Assembly: GCA_022562055.1 (NCBI GenBank)
Contig: JADFQA010000034.1
Span: 1-33,646 of the forward strand
Length of the DNA: 33,646 nucleotides
Direction of reading: 5' to 3'
From: Acidobacteriota bacterium
Lineage (GTDB): Bacteria > Actinomycetota > Acidimicrobiia > Spongiisociales > UBA5794
How positions within the stretch are numbered: position 1 is the stretch's first letter; each line of letters starts with the position of its first letter. The notes below the pieces were generated by a model. The model did not search any database. It was given only the letters and a program-made list of their open reading frames with translations, and was not told the origin of the DNA. Of this stretch, positions 17,577 through 33,219 are shown one piece after another. The translations under genes and the position numbers were made by a program.

Positions 17577-20261
17577 ATGAACACCCCACATGATCCGTAC
17601 CAGGCACGAACGACCGTCTCCACATCGCTTGGCGAACGCACGATCTATCGGCTTGATGCCCTTAGAGACATGGGTGACATAGACTCGCTTCCCTACACGA
17701 TCAAGGTTCTGCTCGAGTCTGTGTTGCGGAACCACGACGGTCGTATCGTCACCGACGACGATGTTCGGGTTTTGGCCCAGTACGATGCTTCCAAGGTCGG
17801 CGAGATCGAGATTGCGTTCAACCCGGGGCGTGTGGTGCTGCAGGATTTCACCGGCGTCCCAGCGGTAGTGGATCTTGCCGCGATGCGGTCCGCCATTGTG
17901 CGTATGACGGGTGACGAGAGCGCCGCCCAAAAAGTGAACCCGCAGGTCCCGGCCGATCTGGTCATCGACCATTCCGTCCAGGTAGATGCTTACAACTCGG
18001 GGATGGCCCTTCAGATCAACTCCGAGCGCGAGTTCGAGCGCAACCAGGAACGATATGAGTTCCTCAAATGGGGACAGAGCGCGTTTGACAACTTCAGCGT
18101 TGTCCCGCCGGCGACCGGCATCGTGCATCAAGTAAATCTTGAGTATCTCGCCAAGGTTGTGTGGGATGCGAACGGCATGCTGTACCCAGATTCGCTTGTC
18201 GGTACCGACTCTCACACCACCATGATTAACGGACTCGGTGTCGTTGGATGGGGTGTTGGAGGCATCGAGGCAGAGGCCGTGATGGTTGGGCAACCGATCT
18301 ATATGCTGCTTCCCGAGGTTGTCGGGTTCAAACTCACCGGCTCCCTTCCAGAAGGCACAACTGCAACCGACCTGGTACTCCGCGTCACCGAGATGCTTCG
18401 GGGGCTTGGCGTGGTCGGCAAGTTTGTCGAGTTCTTCGGTCCTGGCCTGGCCGACATGCCGCTTGCGAACCGTGCGACGATCGCCAATATGGCACCCGAA
18501 TACGGTGCCACGGTCGGCTTCTTTCCGGTGGATGAGCAGACACTGAAATATATGCGTCTGTCGGGGCGCGATGAGGCGCTTATCGAAACGGTCGAGCAGT
18601 ACTGCCGGATCCAGGGGATGTGGCGCGAGGACAGTCGCCAGATCACCTATTCAGACACGCTTGAACTTGATATGGCGACGATCGAACCATCGCTCGCCGG
18701 TCCGAAACGTCCACAGGACCGCATCGCGCTTTCGAACATGAAGGCCCAGTGGCACACGGATCTCGCCGGGCAGCTGCGCACCGACGGCGAGGTTTTCCCT
18801 GTCGAGGGAGTCGAAGTCACGTCCGAAGGTGCAACGTTTCACTTGGCCGATGGCGATGTCGTCATTGCGGCAATCACGTCGTGTACCAATACGTCGAATC
18901 CCGATGTCATGGTCGCCGCCGGGCTTGTTGCGCGCAAGGCTCGCGAGCGTGGCATCACCCGCAAACCGTGGGTGAAGACTTCACTGGCTCCAGGGTCCAA
19001 GGTGGTCATTGAGTATCTGGAGCGGGCCAACCTGCTTGTCGATCTTGAAGCGGCGGGTTTTTATAACGTCGGGTTCGGGTGTACGACGTGCATTGGGAAC
19101 TCCGGTCCGCTACCGGATGAGATCTCCGCCGCGATCAACGACAACAATCTTGTCGCGACGTCGGTGCTGTCCGGCAACCGGAACTTTGAAGGTCGCATCT
19201 CGCCCGACGTTCGTGCGAATTACCTGGCGTCACCACCGCTGGTTGTTGCCTATGCGCTTGCGGGGACGGTGGACATCGACCTCGCTTCAGAACCGATTAC
19301 TCAGGATGCCGACGGGAATGATGTGTTCCTCAAGGACATCTGGCCCACTCAGGCCGAGGTGAACCAGATCGTGGCTTCTTCGGTGACCCGTGAGCAGTTC
19401 CTGGAGCAGTACGGCAACGTGTTCGAGGGAAGCGACGAATGGCGGGACATCGATAGCTCGGAGTCGTCGCTGTATCCGTGGAATGACGCTTCGACGTATA
19501 TTCAGGAGCCGCCGTTTTTCGTCGACCTCGCACCGGACCCGACCCCGATTGTTCCCATTGCGGGTGCCCGGGTGCTTGCAAAATTGGGCGATTCGATCAC
19601 AACCGACCACATTTCTCCGGCGGGCGCAATCGGTCCGGATACTCCCGCCGGCAAGTTCCTTACCGAGTCTGGTGTCGAACTTCGCATGTTTAACTCGTAC
19701 GGGTCGCGCCGCGGTAACGACCGCGTGATGACCCGTGGCACGTTCGCCAACATCCGGGTCCGTAACCAACTAGCCCCGGGAACCGAGGGTGGGTGGACGC
19801 TCGACTTCACCGACGGGGAGGTAAAGAGTATCTACGACGCCAGTCTCAGCTACAAAGATGCCGGGATTCCTCTCGTTGTGCTCGGCGGCAAGGACTACGG
19901 CATGGGATCGTCGCGCGACTGGGCTGCGAAGGGAACGTTCCTTCTGGGTGTCAAAGCCGTGATTGTCGAGTCGTACGAACGTATTCACCGCTCCAATCTC
20001 GTGATGATGGGTGTGCTGCCGCTTACCTACGTCGATGGCGAGAATGCTGACTCGCTGGGCTTGGATGGTTCCGAGACGTTTGCGATCGATGTCGACGATT
20101 CGCTGACGCCACGTCAGCTAGTGAAAGTGACGGCGTCGAAAGCAGATGGATCGAAAACCGAGTTTATGGCGATTGTCAGGTGTGACACCCCGGTCGAAGT
20201 CGAGTACCTTCGCCACGGTGGCATCCTCCACATGGTGCTGAGAAGAATGGCCGAGTCCTAA
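17577..20261 (+). CDS. acnA: aconitate hydratase, AcnA/IRP1 type
   Basis: This encodes 894 residues, the usual length of the AcnA group. It interconverts citrate and isocitrate in the TCA cycle in the cytoplasm. The three [4Fe-4S] ligands are present: Cys436 in [10 protein letters not shown], and Cys502 and Cys505 in [14 protein letters not shown]. Other signatures are [20 protein letters not shown] (207-226), GVGGIEAE (226-233), SGNRNFEGR and, in the C-terminal swivel domain, [20 protein letters not shown] and [22 protein letters not shown] precedes the ATG by about 6 bases. It stands alone as a transcription unit; an inverted repeat (17470-17501) lies upstream. No truncation or substitution of a key residue was noticed. 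Confidence 0.97.
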
Positions 20262-24122: not shown

Positions 24123-25115
24123 CTAATTCCACAACGTGACATGCACACTCGGTCGGAAATGCCGGATGTTGGCGCCTGAACCCGAGAGCATCGCTCGGGT
24201 GGCTCGGGGGGTCGTGATGAAACGCATGAGTTCGGCGGCCACGGCTGTGGTCTGCGACGAGACCAGAGACGTGGCCGTCCACACACCAGATTCCGTCGTA
24301 CCCCGAGCGGAAATTCGCTTGAGGCTTCCATTGGCTAGATAGCTGGCGGTCCGAAAATCAGGAAGGATTGCAATGCCTCCGTTGGTTTGGATCTCGCTGA
24401 TGGCAGCGGCGTGGCTCTGAAATATTCGTTGATTTTCTTCAGGCACGGCGAAGCGCTTGAGCAGGCGAGCAGTTGCGCCACGCTCTTCAGCAGCCGATGG
24501 ACCAAGGAACCATGTCTGCGAGCGGAGAGTCGCCGCATCGCCTCGACTCTTTGCCAACGGGTGATTGGCGCTCGCAACGATTACCAACTCGTACCTTAGA
24601 AACTGGCTGCTCCGAAAACTGTGTGTGGAGATAGGACTCATCGGGGAGATAACGATGTCGGCTTGGCGAGACGAGAGGAGTTCGGCAGCCCGGTGGCTCG
24701 GGTGGACGCTCATCTCGACCTCGATGTCGTTGGCGCGCTTCTTGAAAAGTTCTAGAAGACCCGCAGCGGCGTATTCGGCAAAGAGACTTGTGGTTGCCAG
24801 TCTCAATACCCGCTGACCGCGGCTGGCGGCGAGCACTTCTTGACGGGTCTGTTCTTGCAATCCCAAGAGTTCTTGCGCCCGAGCTGCTAACCGTAACCCG
24901 CCCGGAGTAAATGCCAGCCCGGCCGACGACGGATGGTAGAGCGGGTCGTTCAACTCCTTGCGCAGCGCTGCGGTGTGAGAAGAGATGGCCGCCGCGCTGA
25001 TTCCCAATTCGTCAGCCGCCGCCTTGGCGGTGCCGTGTCTGACGATCGCTGCAAACGCTCTTAGCTGTGTCGGTGTCACGTACCCGCACTTTCTGATGTT
25101 GTCAGCATCTATCAA
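24123..25115 (-). CDS. LysR-family transcriptional regulator, divergent from cox operon
   Basis: This encodes 330 residues. The winged HTH is near the N-terminus: TPTQLRAFAAIVRHGTAKAA, ADELGISAAAISSHTAALRK, followed by an L-x-F-T-P-G-G-L-R-L-type wing and a linker helix. The C-terminal periplasmic-binding-like effector domain (~100-310) contains LRLATTSLFAEYAAAGLLEL and ADIVISPMSPIS. It is transcribed away from coxM with 86 bases between the two starts, the standard arrangement for a LysR regulator controlling its neighbour. Divergent LysR genes accompany form I CO dehydrogenase loci in several actinobacteria, so an activator of cox expression is likely. The inducer is unknown. Confidence 0.88.
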   Translation of the reverse strand: MIDADNIRKCGYVTPTQLRAFAAIVRHGTAKAAADELGISAAAISSHTAALRKELNDPLYHPSSAGLAFTPGGLRLAARAQELLGLQEQTRQEVLAASRGQRVLRLATTSLFAEYAAAGLLELFKKRANDIEVEMSVHPSHRAAELLSSRQADIVISPMSPISTHSFRSSQFLRYELVIVASANHPLAKSRGDAATLRSQTWFLGPSAAEERGATARLLKRFAVPEENQRIFQSHAAAISEIQTNGGIAILPDFRTASYLANGSLKRISARGTTESGVWTATSLVSSQTTAVAAELMRFITTPRATRAMLSGSGANIRHFRPSVHVTLWN

Positions 25116-25173: not shown

Positions 25174-25201
25174 CGGATTGTACCCGACCTGGGAGCCTGA
25201 A

Positions 25202-26077
25202 ATGCAAGTACCTGCGCCGTTCGAATATGAGCGGGCCACTAGCGTCGAGCATGCTATCGCGTTGCGAGAGCGTTTAGGTGAGGAGGCGAGATTCATTGCT
25301 GGCGGCCACAGTCTGCTGCCGATGATGAAGCTCAGACTCGCGAATCCTGAATATCTGATCGACATCAACGATCTCACAGAACTGTTCTACATCACTGAGG
25401 CGGAGGGGGAAATTCGGATCGGAGCGATGACGCGGCATCGTGATTTGCTTGATTCTGACTTGTTGGCTCAGCACTTCCCGATCTTTCGCGATGCAGAGAA
25501 AGTCATTGCCGACCCGGTAGTTCGTAACCGTGGAACGCTCGGCGGATCGCTCTGCCAAGCCGACCCTTCAGAGGATCTGACCGCGGTATGCAACGCACTC
25601 GATGCGTCCTGCGTGATCAAATCGACCAGTGGAGAGCGTGTCGTATCGATGAGCGATTTCCACGTTGGACCCTACGAGACAGCAGTGGGTCCCGCTGAAA
25701 TGCTGACCGAAATCCGCATTCCGCTGAAACCCAACTCAGGTAGCGCGTATGAAAAGGTTGAACGTCGAGCGGGCGACTGGGCAATAGTCTCGGCGGGTGC
25801 TGCAATCTGGATGGATGGTGATCGAATCGCCGATGGAAGGGTCGGACTTGCAGCTGTCGGCCCGAACACCACTTTGATTGGACCTGTGTCCGACGCGCTC
25901 CACAATGTCGTGCCGTCCGAAGACCTCTACGAGGCAGTAGGAGAGATTGCGGCTGCGAACTGCGCCCCCCAAGACGATCTACGAGGGACGGTTGCCTATA
26001 AGACGCACCTTGCGAAAGAACTTACCCGGCGAGCACTACGGCGGGCTGTGGCCCGAGTCCAAGGACAGGAGGCCTGA
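25202..26077 (+). CDS. coxM: aerobic carbon monoxide dehydrogenase, medium (FAD) subunit
   Basis: This encodes 291 residues from ATG 25202, with GGGAG 6 bases upstream. It is the flavoprotein that takes electrons from the Fe-S subunit and hands them to the respiratory chain. FAD-binding signatures are AGGHS (33-37) in IAGGHSLLPMMKLRLANP and TLGGS (112-116) in RNRGTLGGSLCQADPSEDL, at nearly the same positions as in Oligotropha CoxM. The C-terminal domain contains GDWAIVSAGAAI. Order M-S-L, as in known cox operons, and a 1-base gap to coxS show one transcript. Confidence 0.93.
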   Translation: MQVPAPFEYERATSVEHAIALRERLGEEARFIAGGHSLLPMMKLRLANPEYLIDINDLTELFYITEAEGEIRIGAMTRHRDLLDSDLLAQHFPIFRDAEKVIADPVVRNRGTLGGSLCQADPSEDLTAVCNALDASCVIKSTSGERVVSMSDFHVGPYETAVGPAEMLTEIRIPLKPNSGSAYEKVERRAGDWAIVSAGAAIWMDGDRIADGRVGLAAVGPNTTLIGPVSDALHNVVPSEDLYEAVGEIAAANCAPQDDLRGTVAYKTHLAKELTRRALRRAVARVQGQEA

Positions 26078-26078
26078 G

Positions 26079-26564
26079 ATGCAGGTGAACATGACCATCA
26101 ACGGCCAAGAGATCAGCGAGGAGATCGAGCCTCGCCTCCTTCTCGTGCATTTCATCCGAGACCAAGTCGGTCTCACAGGAACTCATTGGGGCTGTGACAC
26201 CAGCAACTGCGGGACGTGCGTCGTACTAGTCGACGGCGAGCCGGTGAAGTCCTGCACGATGCTTACGGCAATGGCCGGCGGCCACGACATTACAACCGTC
26301 GAAGGCCTCGAAGTGGATGGGGTCCTTGACCCGATACAGGAGGGATTCATGCAATGCCATGGGTTGCAGTGTGGCTTTTGCACACCCGGCATGATGCTGA
26401 CCGCACGGGCACTTCTAGACAAGAACGCCGACCCGAGTGATGCCGAGATCCGGGAGGCCATTTCTGGCCAGATCTGCCGTTGTACGGGGTATGCAACCAT
26501 CGTGCGATCCATTCAGTGGGCCGCTAACAATCAGCTAGAAGCTGCGATCGGGAGTACATCATGA
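26079..26564 (+). CDS. coxS: aerobic carbon monoxide dehydrogenase, small (2x[2Fe-2S]) subunit
   Basis: This encodes 161 residues from ATG 26079, with AGGAGG overlapping the coxM stop region. The N-terminal plant-ferredoxin-like domain has Cys39, Cys44, Cys47 and Cys59 (GCDTSNCGTC...KSC). The C-terminal helical domain has Cys98 and Cys101 (GLQCGFCTPGMM) and Cys133 and Cys135 (GQICRCTGY) for the cluster next to the Mo centre. Spacings match the xanthine oxidase family exactly. It relays electrons from CoxL to CoxM. It overlaps coxL as ATGA. Confidence 0.96.
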   Translation: MQVNMTINGQEISEEIEPRLLLVHFIRDQVGLTGTHWGCDTSNCGTCVVLVDGEPVKSCTMLTAMAGGHDITTVEGLEVDGVLDPIQEGFMQCHGLQCGFCTPGMMLTARALLDKNADPSDAEIREAISGQICRCTGYATIVRSIQWAANNQLEAAIGSTS

Positions 26565-28948
26565 CCACAACCGAAACTCCGACCGAGGCAGCAGAAGAGC
26601 AAGAACGGCCGATCGGATTCGGTCGATTACTGCGGAAAGAAGACCCTCGACTGATTCGCGGGATGGGAAACTTTGTTGATGACATCCAGCTTCCTGGCAT
26701 GCTGCACCTCGCGATATTGCGGTCCCCAATGGCGCATGCCCGAATCGTCAGCATTGATACGTCGGCGGCGCTTGCTCACCCCAAGGTGGTTGCGGTCATC
26801 ACAGGTGAGGATCTTGCCGAGAAAGGTCTGGCGTGGATGCCGACCCTCTCCAACGACACACAGGCAGTGTTGGCGACCGACAAGGTTCGATTCCAGCACC
26901 AGGAGGTCGCCTTCGTTGTCGCTGAGGACCGATACTCGGCGCGCGACGCGCTTGAACTCATCGTTGTCGACTACGAGCGGCTTGATCCGGTAATCGACGT
27001 TCGTAAGGCGCTTGATGCCGATGCTCCGTTGATTCGCGATGACCTTGAAGACAAGACTGACAACCGGATCTTTGACTGGGAGACCGGTGACGAGGCCGCG
27101 ACCGCTGAGGTATTCGACAGCGCCGACGTCGTAGTCAGCGAGGAAATTATCTACCCGCGAGTTCACCCTGCACCGATGGAAACGTGCGGATGTGTTGCCG
27201 ACGTCGAACGTGTGTCGGGCAAGTTGACGCTGTGGTGCACGTCGCAGGCACCGCATGCGCACCGCACCATCTATGCATTGGTCACAGGTTTACCGGAACA
27301 TAAAATTCGGATAATTGCGCCCGATATCGGCGGAGGCTTCGGCAACAAAGTGCCGATCTACCCCGGGTATGTGTGTGCGATTGTGGCTTCGCTGGTGATC
27401 GGCAAGCCCGTGAAATGGATGGAGGATCGTACCGAGAACCTGGTCAGCACAGGATTTGCCCGTGACTACATCATGAAGGCCGAAATCGCAGCCACGAAGG
27501 ATGGAAAGATCCTCGCGGTACGCAGCGAAGTGCTTGCGGACCATGGAGCATTCAACGGGGTCGCCTCGCCCGCCAAGTACCCTGCCGGGTTCTTTGGTGT
27601 GTTCACAGGCAGCTACGACCTTGAGGCAGCGTATACGAAGATGACGGCCGTGTATACGAACAAGGCGCCGGGCGGCGTCGCGTACGCGTGTTCTTTCCGG
27701 ATCACCGAGGCGGTCTACATGGTGGAACGTCTTGTCGACTGTCTCGCATACGAATTGGAAATGGACCCAGCCGAACTCCGTCTGAAGAACCTTCTCAAGC
27801 CCGAGCAGTTTCCGTACACGACGAAAACGGGATGGGTGTACGACTCGGGCAACTACGAGCCGGCGATGCGCAAGGCCATGGACATGGCTGGTTATGACGA
27901 ACTGCGTCGCGAGCAGGCTGAGAAACGTGAGCGCGGAGAGCTGATGGGTATCGGTGTTTCATTTTTCACTGAGGCCGTGGGCGCAGGGCCCCGCAAGGAC
28001 ATGGACATCCTGGGTCTCGGAATGGCCGACGGCTGCGAACTCCGTATTCATCCCACTGGCAAGGCGGTGGTACGTCTGTCGGTGAAGTCACAGGGTCAAG
28101 GACACGAGACAACATTTGCGCAGATAGTCTCGGAAGAAATCGGCATTCCTCCAGAAGACATTGAAGTTGTGCAGGGCGATACCGACAACACGCCGTTCGG
28201 TCTGGGCACCTACGGGAGCCGGTCCACGCCGGTGTCGGGTGCTGCCGCGGCCCTCGTGACCCGCAAGGTGCGCGACAAGGCACAGATCATCGCCTCCGGC
28301 ATGCTGGAAGTTTCCGTTGCGGACCTTGAGTGGAACAAGGGTTCGTTTTCGGTGAAGGGCGATCCGTCTAAATCGGTGACGATTCAAGAGATTGCGTTCA
28401 GGTCCTACGGCGCCGGTGACTTGCCCGAGGGAGTCGAAGGCGGACTCGAGGCGCAGATCTGTTACAACCCGGAGAACTTGACGTACCCGTTCGGCGCATA
28501 CATCTGCGTCGTCGACATCGATCCCGGTACTGCTGTTGTCAAAGTACGACGCTTTATTGCGGTCGACGACTGCGGCACACAGATCAATCCGATGATCATT
28601 GAAGGGCAAGTGCACGGCGGCCTAACGGATGGCATTGGCATGGCAATGATGCAGATGGTTTCGTTCGATGAGGACGGCAACTGCCTTGCTGGTTCGTTCA
28701 TGGACTACCTGATTCCCACGGCGTTGGAAACGCCAACATGGGAGACCGGTTACACCGTCACGCCGTCGCCGCATCACCCGATCGGCGCAAAGGGAATTGG
28801 CGAGTCGGCAACGGTTGGTTCACCTCCAGCTGTTGTCAACGCAATCGTCGATGCCCTGAAGCCGTACGGCGTTCGGCACGCCGACATGCCACTGACACCG
28901 TCGCGGGTGTGGGAGGCCATGCAGGGCAACCACACTCCGCCGATCTGA
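26561..28948 (+). CDS. coxL: form I aerobic carbon monoxide dehydrogenase, large (molybdenum) subunit
   Basis: This encodes 795 residues from ATG 26561 (GGGAG 7 bases upstream). It oxidises CO plus water to CO2 at a Mo-Cu site with molybdopterin cytosine dinucleotide. The deciding motif is AYACSFR at 374-380, the form I active-site loop (AYxCSFR) whose cysteine (Cys377 here) binds Cu in Oligotropha CoxL; form II proteins read AYRGAGR. Other family residues are APDIGGGFGNK (253-263), GQGHETTFAQI near 510 and GAKGIGESATVG with the catalytic Glu748. It lacks a signal peptide, as expected for a cytoplasmic, membrane-associated complex. Length (~800) is normal. The accessory genes that follow support a true CO dehydrogenase. 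Confidence 0.95.
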   Translation: MTTTETPTEAAEEQERPIGFGRLLRKEDPRLIRGMGNFVDDIQLPGMLHLAILRSPMAHARIVSIDTSAALAHPKVVAVITGEDLAEKGLAWMPTLSNDTQAVLATDKVRFQHQEVAFVVAEDRYSARDALELIVVDYERLDPVIDVRKALDADAPLIRDDLEDKTDNRIFDWETGDEAATAEVFDSADVVVSEEIIYPRVHPAPMETCGCVADVERVSGKLTLWCTSQAPHAHRTIYALVTGLPEHKIRIIAPDIGGGFGNKVPIYPGYVCAIVASLVIGKPVKWMEDRTENLVSTGFARDYIMKAEIAATKDGKILAVRSEVLADHGAFNGVASPAKYPAGFFGVFTGSYDLEAAYTKMTAVYTNKAPGGVAYACSFRITEAVYMVERLVDCLAYELEMDPAELRLKNLLKPEQFPYTTKTGWVYDSGNYEPAMRKAMDMAGYDELRREQAEKRERGELMGIGVSFFTEAVGAGPRKDMDILGLGMADGCELRIHPTGKAVVRLSVKSQGQGHETTFAQIVSEEIGIPPEDIEVVQGDTDNTPFGLGTYGSRSTPVSGAAAALVTRKVRDKAQIIASGMLEVSVADLEWNKGSFSVKGDPSKSVTIQEIAFRSYGAGDLPEGVEGGLEAQICYNPENLTYPFGAYICVVDIDPGTAVVKVRRFIAVDDCGTQINPMIIEGQVHGGLTDGIGMAMMQMVSFDEDGNCLAGSFMDYLIPTALETPTWETGYTVTPSPHHPIGAKGIGESATVGSPPAVVNAIVDALKPYGVRHADMPLTPSRVWEAMQGNHTPPI

Positions 28949-28953
28949 CATCG

Positions 28954-29856
28954 ATGCTGGCCCATCGACGTCAGGCTGATCGCGCCGCAGAACTTACGGC
29001 ACAGGATATTGCCTTTGTGCAGGCGACCGTCGTGCGAGCGCAGTGCCCGACCTCAACAAGGCCTGGAGATTCAGCGATCATTTTGGCTGACGGAACGATC
29101 GAGGGATTTGTTGGAGGTCAGTGTGCGGAGAGTTCTGTGCGCGCGGCGGCGGCCTCTATTTTCGATTCTGGCGAGGCCCTGTTGTTGCGAATTCTGCCCG
29201 AGGGCGAAGACGACTTCCCCGAGAGCGAAGGGGCTAAAACGGTCGTCAACCCTTGTCTCTCGGGTGGTGCCGTCGAGGTCTTCCTTGAGCCGATGCTGCC
29301 GTCACCGAGAGTCACTCTGGTCGGAACGTCGCCCATTGCGAGCGCGCTCGAGCTCTTCGCTGGTCACCTTGGATTTCTGGTCCAAAACTGCGACCCGAAA
29401 ACGTTGGACCTAAACAACTGCGTGGCTGTTCTCATATCTAGCCATGGCCGTTTCGAAGGCGAGGCGATTCGAACCGCTCTCGACGGGGGAGTGAAATTCA
29501 TCGGACTGGTTGCGAGCGCGGCAAGGGGGAAAGCCGTTCTCGTCGAGCTCAATCTGTCCGAGGACGAGCGACGCATTGTAAGAACGCCGATAGGGATCGA
29601 CATCGGCGCCAAAACGGCCGAAGAAATTGCACTTTCGATCTTGGCCGAATTAGTTCGGGCCGTTCGAAAAGAGGGGCTCAGGCCGACGTCGCCGATTGTG
29701 ACCGATAGACCCGAATCTGCACTTGACCCCGTGTGCGGCATGACGGTGGTCGTTGCTCACGACACTCCACACCTTGTCGTTGACGGCATTGACCATTGGT
29801 TCTGCAACTCAGGTTGTCGGACACGCTATGCCGAGGAAATCGGTCTCACCCTGTGA
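28954..29856 (+). CDS. XdhC/CoxI-family maturation protein fused to a YHS domain
   Basis: This encodes 300 residues from ATG 28954, 5 bases after the coxL stop (the frame is open far upstream but only as a shadow of coxL). Residues ~5-90 match the XdhC/CoxI N-terminal domain (VVRAQCPTSTRPGDSAIILA, GFVGGQCAESSVR). Residues ~115-240 form the Rossmann-like C domain (VTLVGTSPIASALELFAGHL). XdhC proteins bind and insert the Mo cofactor and promote sulfuration of the large subunit. The last 45 residues (256-300) are a YHS domain: LDPVCGMTVVVAHDTPHLVV and FCNSGCRTRYAEE, a cysteine-rich fold found in metal, notably copper or silver, handling proteins. This fused form probably corresponds to genes annotated coxF. 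The start has no strong ribosome site. Confidence 0.88.
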   Translation: MLAHRRQADRAAELTAQDIAFVQATVVRAQCPTSTRPGDSAIILADGTIEGFVGGQCAESSVRAAAASIFDSGEALLLRILPEGEDDFPESEGAKTVVNPCLSGGAVEVFLEPMLPSPRVTLVGTSPIASALELFAGHLGFLVQNCDPKTLDLNNCVAVLISSHGRFEGEAIRTALDGGVKFIGLVASAARGKAVLVELNLSEDERRIVRTPIGIDIGAKTAEEIALSILAELVRAVRKEGLRPTSPIVTDRPESALDPVCGMTVVVAHDTPHLVVDGIDHWFCNSGCRTRYAEEIGLTL

Positions 29857-30443
29857 ACAGGTTTGTAGTGGGACTTGTTCTGGGTGCCGGTGCCTCGCAG
29901 CGAATGGGACAGCCTAAACAGTTGCTGCCCTACCGAGGCAAACCCCTGTTGCAATCCGCGGTAGACAACGCGCTCGGCGCAGAGTTCGCTCAGGTTGTCG
30001 TCGCCATCGGAGGAGCTGCCTCCGAGGTGCGGGCATCAATTGACTTTGGAGCTGCAGTGGTCGTCGAAAACGTGCGCTTTACGGCGGGATGTTCTTCGTC
30101 GATCTTGGCCGCCCTCGACGTGGTTGACGCCAAGGCCCAAGGTATCGTTTTGCTTCTTGGTGACCAGCCAGACGTTTCTACCTCGACGATGAACCGGTTC
30201 GTTGCCGATGCCGACGGTCCCCTTGCTGTATCTCGTTATGCCGACGGGCGGGGCCATCCGTTGTGGTTTGGGAGGGAAATCTTTGACGATCTACGCAAGC
30301 TCCAAGGCGACAAGGCGGTATGGAAGCTCCTCGAATCTGGTCGCTATCCGGTTGATGAAATTTTCGTTGACGGCGTTGTGCCTGGAGATGTTGACACGTG
30401 GGACGACTACCGCCAACTATTGGCCAGTGAGTCAAACTCGTGA
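29853..30443 (+). CDS. MobA/MocA-like molybdenum-cofactor nucleotidyltransferase
   Basis: This encodes 196 residues from GTG 29853, overlapping the XdhC stop as GTGA. The NTP-transferase fold opens with VLGAGASQRMGQPKQLLPYR, with GxGxSxRMGxPK binding the nucleotide triphosphate, and LLLGDQPDVS provides the metal-binding Asp. Enzymes of this group add CMP (MocA) or GMP (MobA) to molybdopterin. Because form I CO dehydrogenase uses the cytosine dinucleotide form, MocA activity is the likely role here. The reading is a single, standard-length domain. Confidence 0.85.
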   Translation: MNRFVVGLVLGAGASQRMGQPKQLLPYRGKPLLQSAVDNALGAEFAQVVVAIGGAASEVRASIDFGAAVVVENVRFTAGCSSSILAALDVVDAKAQGIVLLLGDQPDVSTSTMNRFVADADGPLAVSRYADGRGHPLWFGREIFDDLRKLQGDKAVWKLLESGRYPVDEIFVDGVVPGDVDTWDDYRQLLASESNS

Positions 30444-31327
30444 CCGATTTCACCGATCGGGAGACGCTCATCACGGCGCTCGACGGAGCTGACTACCTCG
30501 TTGACGAGGGTCTTGCCACTGCGCTGTTCTTGGCCCAGGCTCTTCGGCAACCACTACTACTCGAAGGCGAGCCTGGCGTTGGCAAGACAACAGCGGCCAA
30601 GGCAATGGCTGCGGTCCTCGATGGACCGTTGATCCGCCTCCAATGTTATGAAGGCATCAGCGTCTCGGAAGCGCTGTACGAGTGGAACTACGCGCAGCAA
30701 ATGTTGGCCATACGGATCGCCGAAGTATCGAACAATAGTGTCACCTCGGCCGACCTTTGCTCCGAAGAGTTTCTGCTCGATCGTCCGCTGCTGAAGTCTG
30801 TCCGACACCCTGGGCCAACTCCAGCCGTGTTGTTGATCGACGAGATCGATCGGGCGGATGACGAGTTCGAGGCGCTGCTACTTGAGTTCCTCGGTGAACA
30901 GTCTGTGACGGTTCCAGAACTCGGCACCTTTCGCGCGATTGTCGACCCGGTGGTAATCCTGACATCAAACAGAAGCCGCGAACTGCACGACGCCCTCAAA
31001 CGACGCTGCTTATACCATTGGATCGAGTTTCCGTCGGTCGAGAGGGTCGCGCAGATCGTGCGACGAAACGTACCAAGCGCCGCCGAACCCCTCGTATCGG
31101 CGGCGACCGCGTTTGTTGGCCGAGCACGGCTTCTCGACCTCGACAAACCACCAGGAGTTTCCGAGGTGATCGACTGGGTCGGCGCACTCCATGCCTTGGG
31201 CATCACGCAACTCGACAATGCCAGCGTGCAAGCGACGCTTAGCGCGGTGGTTAAGACGCCTGACGACCACCGACGGACGACCGAGGCTTTGTCATCTCAA
31301 GAACTCACTGTGGAGACCTCCGCGTGA
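30440..31327 (+). CDS. coxD: CoxD, MoxR-type AAA+ ATPase for CO dehydrogenase maturation
   Basis: This encodes 295 residues from GTG 30440 (GTGA overlap with the upstream gene). Walker A GEPGVGKT lies at 43-50, Walker B LLIDEIDRAD at 131-140, sensor 1 in VVILTSNRSREL, and an arginine finger region in DALKRRCLYHWI. CoxD of Oligotropha is a membrane-bound ATPase needed to assemble the [CuSMoO2] active site; it works as a chaperone with the VWA partner CoxE, present here two genes on. The position between the nucleotidyltransferase and CoxG/CoxE fits this. Confidence 0.93.
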   Translation: MTDFTDRETLITALDGADYLVDEGLATALFLAQALRQPLLLEGEPGVGKTTAAKAMAAVLDGPLIRLQCYEGISVSEALYEWNYAQQMLAIRIAEVSNNSVTSADLCSEEFLLDRPLLKSVRHPGPTPAVLLIDEIDRADDEFEALLLEFLGEQSVTVPELGTFRAIVDPVVILTSNRSRELHDALKRRCLYHWIEFPSVERVAQIVRRNVPSAAEPLVSAATAFVGRARLLDLDKPPGVSEVIDWVGALHALGITQLDNASVQATLSAVVKTPDDHRRTTEALSSQELTVETSA

Positions 31328-31366
31328 TCAAGACCAATCGGACAAATGAATGGAAGACCGAGCACC

Positions 31367-32011
31367 ATGAAAATTGAGAACGAATTTCGGGTCAACGCCC
31401 CTATCGAGGTGGCATGGAAGTTTCTCACCGACCTGCCGGCGATTACGCCGTGTTTGCCTGGAGCGAGACTCACGTCAGTTGAAGACGAAACATACAGCGG
31501 CACCATCAAGATCAAGGTGGGGCCCGTCACCGCCGAGTACTTGGGCACTGCCATCTTCGTGTCAAAAGATGACACTGCATATCGGGCAGAGATTTTGGCG
31601 AAGGGACGGGACTCACGCGGCTCTGGCAACGCAGACGCCGTAATCGTCGCTCAACTGACATCCGACGGCGATGTTACCGTGGTGAACATCGACACGGATC
31701 TCAAGATCAGCGGCAAGGTCGCCCAATTCGGCCGCGGCGTCATGATCGACGTGTCCAACAAGCTGATCGGTCAGTTTGTTGAGTGCCTCGAAGACAAGAT
31801 CCGCGAGCAACGAGAAGAGGGTGCTGCTCACTCGGGGCCGGAAGGCGACGATGCAGAATCGATACTCACGATCGGTGACGACACTGAAGTTGAGGCTCTC
31901 GACCTCACCGCGGTCGCCAGCGGGGCGGTGCTCAAGAGAGTCGTTCCTGTTATCGCGGTGATCGCCGTGCTGATCCTATTCTGGCGAGTTGTCTTGTATG
32001 AGCGGCAGTGA
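31367..32011 (+). CDS. coxG: CoxG, SRPBCC-fold protein with C-terminal membrane anchor
   Basis: This encodes 214 residues from ATG 31367; an ATG at 31346 in the same frame would add 7 residues, and neither has a strong ribosome site. The SRPBCC/polyketide-cyclase-like fold opens MKIENEFRVNAPIEVAWKFL, TDLPAITPCLPGA, then YSGTIKIKVGPVTAEYLGTA and a C-terminal long helix VSNKLIGQFVECLEDKI. A ~40-residue acidic linker leads to one hydrophobic segment (VVPVIAVIAVLILFW, ~190-207) near the end. CoxG is needed for membrane attachment of CO dehydrogenase in Oligotropha, so the C-terminal span probably is the anchor. GTGA overlap with coxE shows coupling. Confidence 0.9.
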   Translation: MKIENEFRVNAPIEVAWKFLTDLPAITPCLPGARLTSVEDETYSGTIKIKVGPVTAEYLGTAIFVSKDDTAYRAEILAKGRDSRGSGNADAVIVAQLTSDGDVTVVNIDTDLKISGKVAQFGRGVMIDVSNKLIGQFVECLEDKIREQREEGAAHSGPEGDDAESILTIGDDTEVEALDLTAVASGAVLKRVVPVIAVIAVLILFWRVVLYERQ

Positions 32012-33219
32012 CCGCCGCGACGATCTTTCGGAATGTCGACAGCGCCATCTTTGTAGCGGCATTCGCCGATCGCCTACGGAACGCCGGGGTAGAAGTCGGG
32101 GTGCCTTCGGCCACCCGCTTCAGCGAAGCAATGTCGCATTGTGCCCCGACTGATGCCATCACTCTCTATTGGGTTGCCCGAACGTGTTTGATACACGATC
32201 GAAATGACCTTGATGTGTTCGATGTAGTTTTCGACCAAATCTTCGAAGGTGGAGGCCTGTCGATCAATCCCCGGCAGCGTGCTGTACCCCGGCCAATCGT
32301 CAAGCCCCAGGGAACGGTTATTCGAACCCCCGCCGCGACGGACATTGTGCGGGGGAGAATTGTCACGAACGCTCGGCCCATCATCGTCGACGACGGGGAC
32401 GACGACGATGATGATGACGACGGCGGCAATGAATCTGTTTTGTCCGAGCTGCTACCTTCTGCTTTCAGTCATCTCGCAGACACGCCATTCGAGCAGCTCA
32501 GCATCTACGAACTCGATCTGATCGGTGGTTGGCTTGATGCCATGTTGATTACGTTTCCCACGAGACGGACCCGTCGTTTTCGGCCTGCCAACCGTCCCGG
32601 ATCGATCGATCTTCGACGCACGATGAGCGTGGCACGCGCAACCGGTGGCGAGCCGATCCGACTTGTGCACCGGCGTTTACGTCGTCGACCGCGCAAGATT
32701 GTCATGCTTGCGGACATGAGTGGCTCCATGGAGGCTTTCAGTCGGATCTATTTGCATCTCATGAGGGGTCTTGTCACTCACGGGCACGCCGAGGTATTCA
32801 TCTTCTCAACATCTTTGCGTCGAGTAACCACACAGTTGCGTGACCGCGATCCGTTGCGTGCAATAGATCGCTTGTCCGAAGAAGTCATCGATCGGTTCGA
32901 TGGAACGAAGATTGCTTCCAGCATCCATCAGCTTTTAGCCAGTCCGATCTGGTCCAATGCGGTACGAGGGGCAATCGTGATCATCGCATCGGATGGGTGG
33001 GACGCTGATCCTACCGACATTCTCCAACAGCGTATGCTGCGACTCCGGAGGATGGCTCACCGGATCATCTGGATCAACCCCCGCTCGGCTGCCAACGATT
33101 TTGAACCGCTCGTCGGTGGCATGGCGGCAGCTCTTCCCTTCACCGATGAGCTGTTGAGCGGGCACACACTAAGCGCGATGCACGACGTGATTGCATCGAT
33201 CGCCTCTGCCAGAAACTGA
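32008..33219 (+). CDS. coxE: CoxE, von Willebrand factor A-domain protein
   Basis: This encodes 403 residues from GTG 32008 (GTGA overlap with coxG). It has an N-terminal helical domain (~1-120), an acidic run of aspartates at 128-138 encoded by a GAC/GAT repeat (32387-32425), and a C-terminal VWA domain (~228-400). The VWA MIDAS motif is DMSGS (236-240) in IVMLADMSGSMEAFSRIY, with EVFIFSTSLRRVT and IIASDGWDADPTDI later in the fold. CoxE partners with the AAA+ protein CoxD in assembling the Mo-Cu site. It is the last gene of the operon; a hairpin plus T-tract follows at 33244-33281. Confidence 0.92.
   Translation: MTAATIFRNVDSAIFVAAFADRLRNAGVEVGVPSATRFSEAMSHCAPTDAITLYWVARTCLIHDRNDLDVFDVVFDQIFEGGGLSINPRQRAVPRPIVKPQGTVIRTPAATDIVRGRIVTNARPIIVDDGDDDDDDDDGGNESVLSELLPSAFSHLADTPFEQLSIYELDLIGGWLDAMLITFPTRRTRRFRPANRPGSIDLRRTMSVARATGGEPIRLVHRRLRRRPRKIVMLADMSGSMEAFSRIYLHLMRGLVTHGHAEVFIFSTSLRRVTTQLRDRDPLRAIDRLSEEVIDRFDGTKIASSIHQLLASPIWSNAVRGAIVIIASDGWDADPTDILQQRMLRLRRMAHRIIWINPRSAANDFEPLVGGMAAALPFTDELLSGHTLSAMHDVIASIASARN

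Follow-up and report, generated by a model that had tools for sequence, protein, structure and literature searches.

A YHS domain fused to the CoxF assembly protein accompanies form I CO dehydrogenases and may help to deliver their copper

The stretch of 33,646 nucleotides analysed here (the window) encodes, within a form I CO dehydrogenase (CODH) operon, a CoxF protein that ends in a YHS domain, and wherever we could read the molybdenum enzyme next to such a fused gene it was of form I. With its unusual Mo-S-Cu site, form I CODH drives the aerobic oxidation of CO, which includes removing it from the atmosphere. We think it probable that the YHS domain is a built-in copper module, with which CoxF captures copper and passes it to CODH. 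What is new is the YHS-fused CoxF; CoxF itself, and its assignment to copper insertion, are already known (PMC4240915). A first-pass annotation of this DNA had proposed the fusion and asked whether it goes with form I enzymes, an association for which the evidence is much stronger than that annotation could know; its ideas about copper insertion fared less well, as described below, and the tail turns out to be dispensable.

The window protein belongs to the CoxF clade

The operon is compact and lies on the + strand at 25199-33219, in the order coxM-coxS-coxL-xdhC-mocA-coxD-coxG-coxE. The first three genes encode the CODH subunits: the FAD subunit (coxM, 25199..26077, +; FAD_binding_5, CO_deh_flav_C), the 2Fe-2S subunit (coxS, 26079..26564, +; Fer2, Fer2_2) and the Mo/Cu subunit (coxL, 26561..28948, +), which is of form I by a TIGR02416 score of 1413 bits against a cut-off of 991 and by the active-site loop AYACSFR read in the sequence. 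The xdhC gene (28954..29856, +), whose 300-residue product we call P0001, starts 5 bp past the coxL stop, and its own stop codon overlaps the start of a mocA-like molybdopterin cytidylyltransferase gene (29853..30443, +; NTP_transf_3, with TIGR03310 as best NCBIfam match, under its cut-off). Downstream are coxD (30440..31327, +; AAA_5), a MoxR-type AAA+ ATPase whose position and score make it the ortholog of Afipia CoxD, coxG (31346..32011, +; PF06240 COXG) and coxE, a VWA protein (32008..33219, +; PF05762 VWA_CoxE). The gene immediately preceding coxM (24123-25115, -) encodes a divergent LysR-type regulator, a possible controller of the operon. The aconitase gene acnA (17577-20261) is found about 5 kb upstream of the cluster; in Thermomicrobium roseum, acnA (L032:9380-12163) is directly downstream of a form I cox cluster, a shared neighbourhood that may be due to chance.

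We identify P0001 as a CoxF, the member of the XdhC family that serves in the assembly of form I (Mo/Cu) CODH. It matches XdhC_CoxI at residues 16-79 (E 3.8e-15, 56 bits against a curated cut-off of 24.3) and XdhC_C at residues 121-233 (E 6.2e-18, 66 bits against 29.7). The cox cluster of Oligotropha (Afipia) carboxidovorans contains two XdhC proteins, CoxF and CoxI (PMC2997495). A maximum-likelihood tree (quick method), built on the core only with the tail left out, sets P0001 with Oligotropha CoxF (L031), apart from nearly all other XdhC proteins, in one group of 142 rows on a starred branch (99); the group comprises all CoxF rows and one other XdhC (L090). The gene context agrees, with form I coxL adjoining and coxD and coxE downstream. 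The alignment with Oligotropha CoxF includes the invariant core cysteines. Cys57 (codon 29122..29124, +) occupies an invariant column of the CoxF alignment, in a GGxCA signature that is mostly missing from other XdhC proteins. Cys101 (codon 29254..29256, +), in CxSxG, is likewise an invariant core cysteine and aligns with the putative copper site MCPSHGTM of Oligotropha CoxF (PMC4240915), where P0001 reads NPCLSGG. Both cysteines are invariant in CoxF with or without the tail. The cysteine register differs between the CoxF group (GGxC and CxSxG) and other XdhC proteins (GGC and CGG).

The strain OM5 protein (pHCG3, L031 11977-12819) is the natural comparison, being encoded in a coxMSL-DEFG cluster, next to form I coxL, and placed in the same clade. 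Unlike P0001 it has 280 residues, no YHS tail and a different gene order. The first-pass annotation had supposed that copper delivery to CODH has no assigned chaperone, but work on Oligotropha had given that task to CoxF, to whose clade P0001 belongs. Pelzmann et al. 2014 reported that the CODH of coxF or coxE mutants has Mo but is devoid of Cu, and they put CoxF forward as the protein that supplies the copper (PMC4240915). Copper per CODH was 0.00 in E::km and 0.043 in F::km, against 1.47-1.62 in wild type, while Mo was complete, and sulfane sulfur almost so, in the enzyme from these insertion mutants (PMC4240915). Neither CoxE nor CoxF is produced without the other, each being missing from the other's mutant (PMC4240915), and the role of CoxF therefore cannot be separated out in the Oligotropha mutants. 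In the Oligotropha enzyme, insertion of the Mo cofactor precedes that of copper (PMC4240915), and the earlier suggestion that a fused tail couples Mo-cofactor insertion to copper delivery goes beyond the evidence. The C-terminus of Oligotropha CoxF had been read as a phytase motif (RHGQRQS). Alphaproteobacterial CoxF relatives have RRTGQRQ, RRRGQRR or RRQRAR in place of the phytase pattern RHGxRxP (loci compared, with Oligotropha itself as L031: L031, L102, L106, L178, L211, L214, L220), and this lack of conservation weakens the phytate-copper model. A literature search, with subscription papers and preprints outside its scope, returned no publication in which YHS and either XdhC or CO dehydrogenase both appear; a possible reason for this silence is that the sole CoxF studied has no tail.

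The C-terminal tail is a diverged YHS/TRASH domain

The tail occupies residues 256-300 of P0001 (29719..29853, +) and has the sequence ALDPVCGMTVVVAHDTPHLVVDGIDHWFCNSGCRTRYAEEIGLTL; the C-terminal end of the protein is DPVCGMTVVVAHDTPHLVVDGIDHWFCNSGCRTRYAEEIGLTL. The residue range is that of the first-pass annotation, which had placed the DNA start one codon early, at 29716. Pfam YHS (PF04945) does not match the window protein, and loosening the threshold does not change this, so we tested the family assignment through homologues and a leave-out profile. Homologues carry a YHS domain at the same position of the protein (in the same order, on a Thermomicrobium plasmid and in 80 public loci), and Pfam YHS is called in 61/66 aligned homologues. 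Against a profile of 74 tails, from which the window and nine close relatives had been excluded, the window tail scores 50.0 bits, and the best of 5000 shuffles reaches 11.9. The fusion that had been proposed is therefore real, and the window tail is a diverged YHS/TRASH domain.

The pattern of one Asp and three Cys described as a YHS metal-ligand set (PMC4626032) is present in P0001 as D258 (29725-29727), C261 (29734-29736), C284 (29803-29805) and C288 (29815-29817), all codons on the + strand, and these are the putative ligands by analogy with that work. Among 119 tails, the Asp is kept in 113 and the three Cys in 118, 118 and 119, respectively. The congener L002, 78% identical, retains the tail; with pN 0.11 and pS 0.61, near the values of the core, the tail appears to be under purifying selection.

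The structure prediction that had been called for gives a confident tail. The AlphaFold2 model of full-length P0001 has a pLDDT of 93.7, and that of the isolated tail (49 residues) reaches 94.2. The tail was modelled alone because a Foldseek search with the whole model returns XdhC folds only. With the tail model, the top Foldseek rows are all of eL24 type, at a TM of about 0.6, with modest scores and E above 0.3, and the VIA comparison gives Z 5.2 and rmsd 2.6 over 44 aligned residues. The protein eL24 is the metal-binding TRASH prototype (PMC4626032). The YHS domain of phenol hydroxylase also matches the tail in sequence, but we set it aside as uninformative on metal. One Chloroflexi CoxF (L075:9989-11155) ends in a tandem pair of YHS domains (Pfam YHS 112 bits, 2 stretches).

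Two other kinds of YHS protein resemble the tail. The adenylyl cyclase of Mycobacterium phlei has, like P0001, a short C-terminal YHS fusion with the Asp and three Cys, and micromolar Cu2+ activates it where six other ions fail to do so (PMC4626032); unlike what we propose for CoxF, its domain is the sensor of a signalling enzyme and delivers no copper to a metalloenzyme. Cu-transporting P-type ATPases share the DPVCGM...YFC...C motif, with copper binding proposed, not demonstrated (PMC4626032), but they are membrane pumps. YHS matches in ORFs of about 1000 residues occur in the window's phylum. Stand-alone short YHS reading frames of 58-91 residues are also seen in actinobacterial genomes (G059, G095, G105, G116, G110, G099, G042).

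Association with form I coxL, and losses of the tail

The tail tracks form I coxL, a point that the first-pass annotation had wanted surveyed, in three samplings. The first went outward from CoxF, picking proteins by similarity and ignoring their neighbours; each tailed protein with a readable Mo subunit adjoins form I coxL. The second went outward from coxL in 80 genomes of the window's phylum, where intact CoxF at form I loci always has the tail and the XdhC of non-form-I clusters never does. The third was a whole-genome, alignment-based search of 80 genomes of the phylum. It finds a tailed CoxF in 14/15 genomes with form I coxL (one, G053, counted on a partial coxL of 848 bits, and the fifteenth, G057, cut by a contig end) and in 0/65 without, and the other XdhC matches end where the Rossmann domain ends. 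Fisher's p for these genomes is 1e-14, a description rather than a test of independent events, given the kinship of the genomes and the probable single origin of the tail.

Pooled and deduplicated, the samples contain 118 intact tailed XdhC proteins, of which 101 have a readable Mo-hydroxylase neighbour, in all 101 cases form I CODH. An apparent non-form-I exception, L069, merely has an X in its AYxCSFR motif. Tailed proteins make up 118/142 intact CoxF, a biased frequency, as the pool was enriched by its collection for form I neighbours and tailed homologues. We looked for the outcome that the first-pass annotation had named as refuting, the same tail on xdhC genes beside Cu-free hydroxylases, and found it in 0/130 other XdhC proteins, 31 of them beside non-form-I enzymes. 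Rhodobacter XdhC and the generic XdhC/CoxI proteins (PDB 2we7, 2we8, 3on5) belong to this tail-less set; they share XdhC_CoxI and the Rossmann fold with P0001, but have the GGC/CGG register and serve Cu-free hydroxylases. Many of the non-form-I clusters with a tail-less XdhC also hold coxD, coxE, coxG and mocA. In the same phylum this is so for form II clusters (loop AYRGAGR; L126, L127, L129, L130, L153, L162, L166 and similar), and those genes alone, XdhC included, therefore cannot mark copper insertion.

Tailed CoxF proteins are widespread. We find them in Actinomycetota, Acidobacteriota, Chloroflexota, Bacteroidota, Gemmatimonadota, Rokubacteria and Deinococcota, in gamma- and betaproteobacteria, and in SAR324, Thermoplasmata and Natronorubrum. 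The tail is missing in all sampled alphaproteobacterial CoxF, including that of Afipia/Oligotropha. Among CoxF proteins drawn from form I coxL, several proteobacterial ones lack it, as do 3/23 intact ones from Actinomycetes (L225, L226, L247). Nonomuraea L180 was checked as a possible artefact and proved to be a genuine tail-less CoxF at a form I locus. Other apparent losses are not real: L009 is a MAG frameshift with the tail present in another frame, and L050, L121 and L245 are genes cut by contig ends. Two SAR324 loci (L094:12195-13001 and L073) have, in each cluster, a tailed CoxF and a second, tail-less CoxF-related XdhC, which suggests a division of labour.

Over all tree rows the tail changes state about seven times, one of them the L009 frameshift, and the pattern suggests an early single gain followed by several losses, including in the sampled Alphaproteobacteria. 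The YHS-fused form is apparently the commoner and older form of CoxF. Whether it was also the ancestral standard copper loader of Mo/Cu CODH, with YHS as a fused, dedicated metallochaperone that the lineage of the sole studied CoxF has lost, we regard as evenly balanced. Beside tail-less form I loci we found no convincing short ORF for a separate YHS gene that could replace the tail (the best scores 11.4 bits, most below 9). As tail-less CoxF proteins exist beside form I coxL, the tail would improve or regulate something and be dispensable.

A role for the YHS domain in copper delivery

By analogy with copper-responsive YHS proteins, the domain most likely binds copper through Asp258/Cys261/Cys284/Cys288 and helps to bring it to CODH. 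The YHS domain would capture copper with these four residues; the copper would be passed on, perhaps via the invariant core cysteines Cys57 and Cys101, and would reach the sulfurated Mo site of the folded apo-CODH, with CoxE and CoxD taking part. We infer the copper binding, the arrival at CODH and the relay route from the exclusive pairing with form I, the CoxF clade, the conservation of the ligands, the breadth of the distribution, the apparent purifying selection, the modest fold match to eL24 and the published copper data on CoxF and on YHS, for which delivery is the best explanation. Several points count against it. The Oligotropha mutants do not separate CoxF from CoxE; with one gain and subsequent travel with the operon, much of the association would have arisen without independent events; the tail is not needed everywhere and is missing in the very CoxF where the copper role was shown; and YHS/TRASH domains are not Cu-specific by sequence, as eL24 binds Cd2+ and the YHS domain of toluene-4-hydroxylase was found empty (PMC4626032).

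The same dispensability would suit a copper sensor or gate, in which binding of copper would let CoxF associate with CODH or CoxE only at times when the metal is available, and the copper that is inserted would be supplied by the core site or by a different donor. The M. phlei cyclase, switched on by Cu2+, provides a precedent (PMC4626032), and the invariance of Cys57 and Cys101 whether or not a tail follows means that the basic transfer site may be in the core. Carrying and sensing look alike in sequence, and we consider sensing unlikely to be the main role. A role outside copper chemistry, in which the tail binds Zn or some other ion and acts as a small structural element or as a docking module recruiting CoxF to CoxL or CoxE, also seems rather unlikely to us. 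Treble-clef-like TRASH folds are often structural, the nearest folds to the tail are ribosomal eL24 and monooxygenase hydroxylases, and the Cd2+ binding of eL24 fits as well; but coxD, coxE, coxG, mocA and XdhC are all retained in form II clusters within the phylum, where the tail never occurs, which is hard to reconcile with generic docking, and the Asp and three Cys are the set proposed for Cu-responsive YHS domains, as opposed to the four-Cys set of eL24. That the YHS domain fused once to an early CoxF and has since travelled with the form I operon, functionless today, would fit the few changes on the tree and the tolerated losses, but is very improbable given four ligand positions almost fully conserved over many phyla and two domains and the signs of purifying selection on the tail.

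If copper delivery is indeed the role, the tail would be an example of a metallochaperone domain joined to a maturase of the Mo cofactor. Copper delivery to CODH has so far been modelled on one alphaproteobacterium, from short motif matches (the phytase motif and a CxxH-like copper site). For most of the other lineages sampled, the YHS domain offers a candidate copper site with better support, and it singles out four residues. The tail is also a genomic marker that separates the accessory genes of form I CODH from those of its Cu-free relatives, and its presence on CoxF suggests a testable answer to how copper enters CO dehydrogenase.
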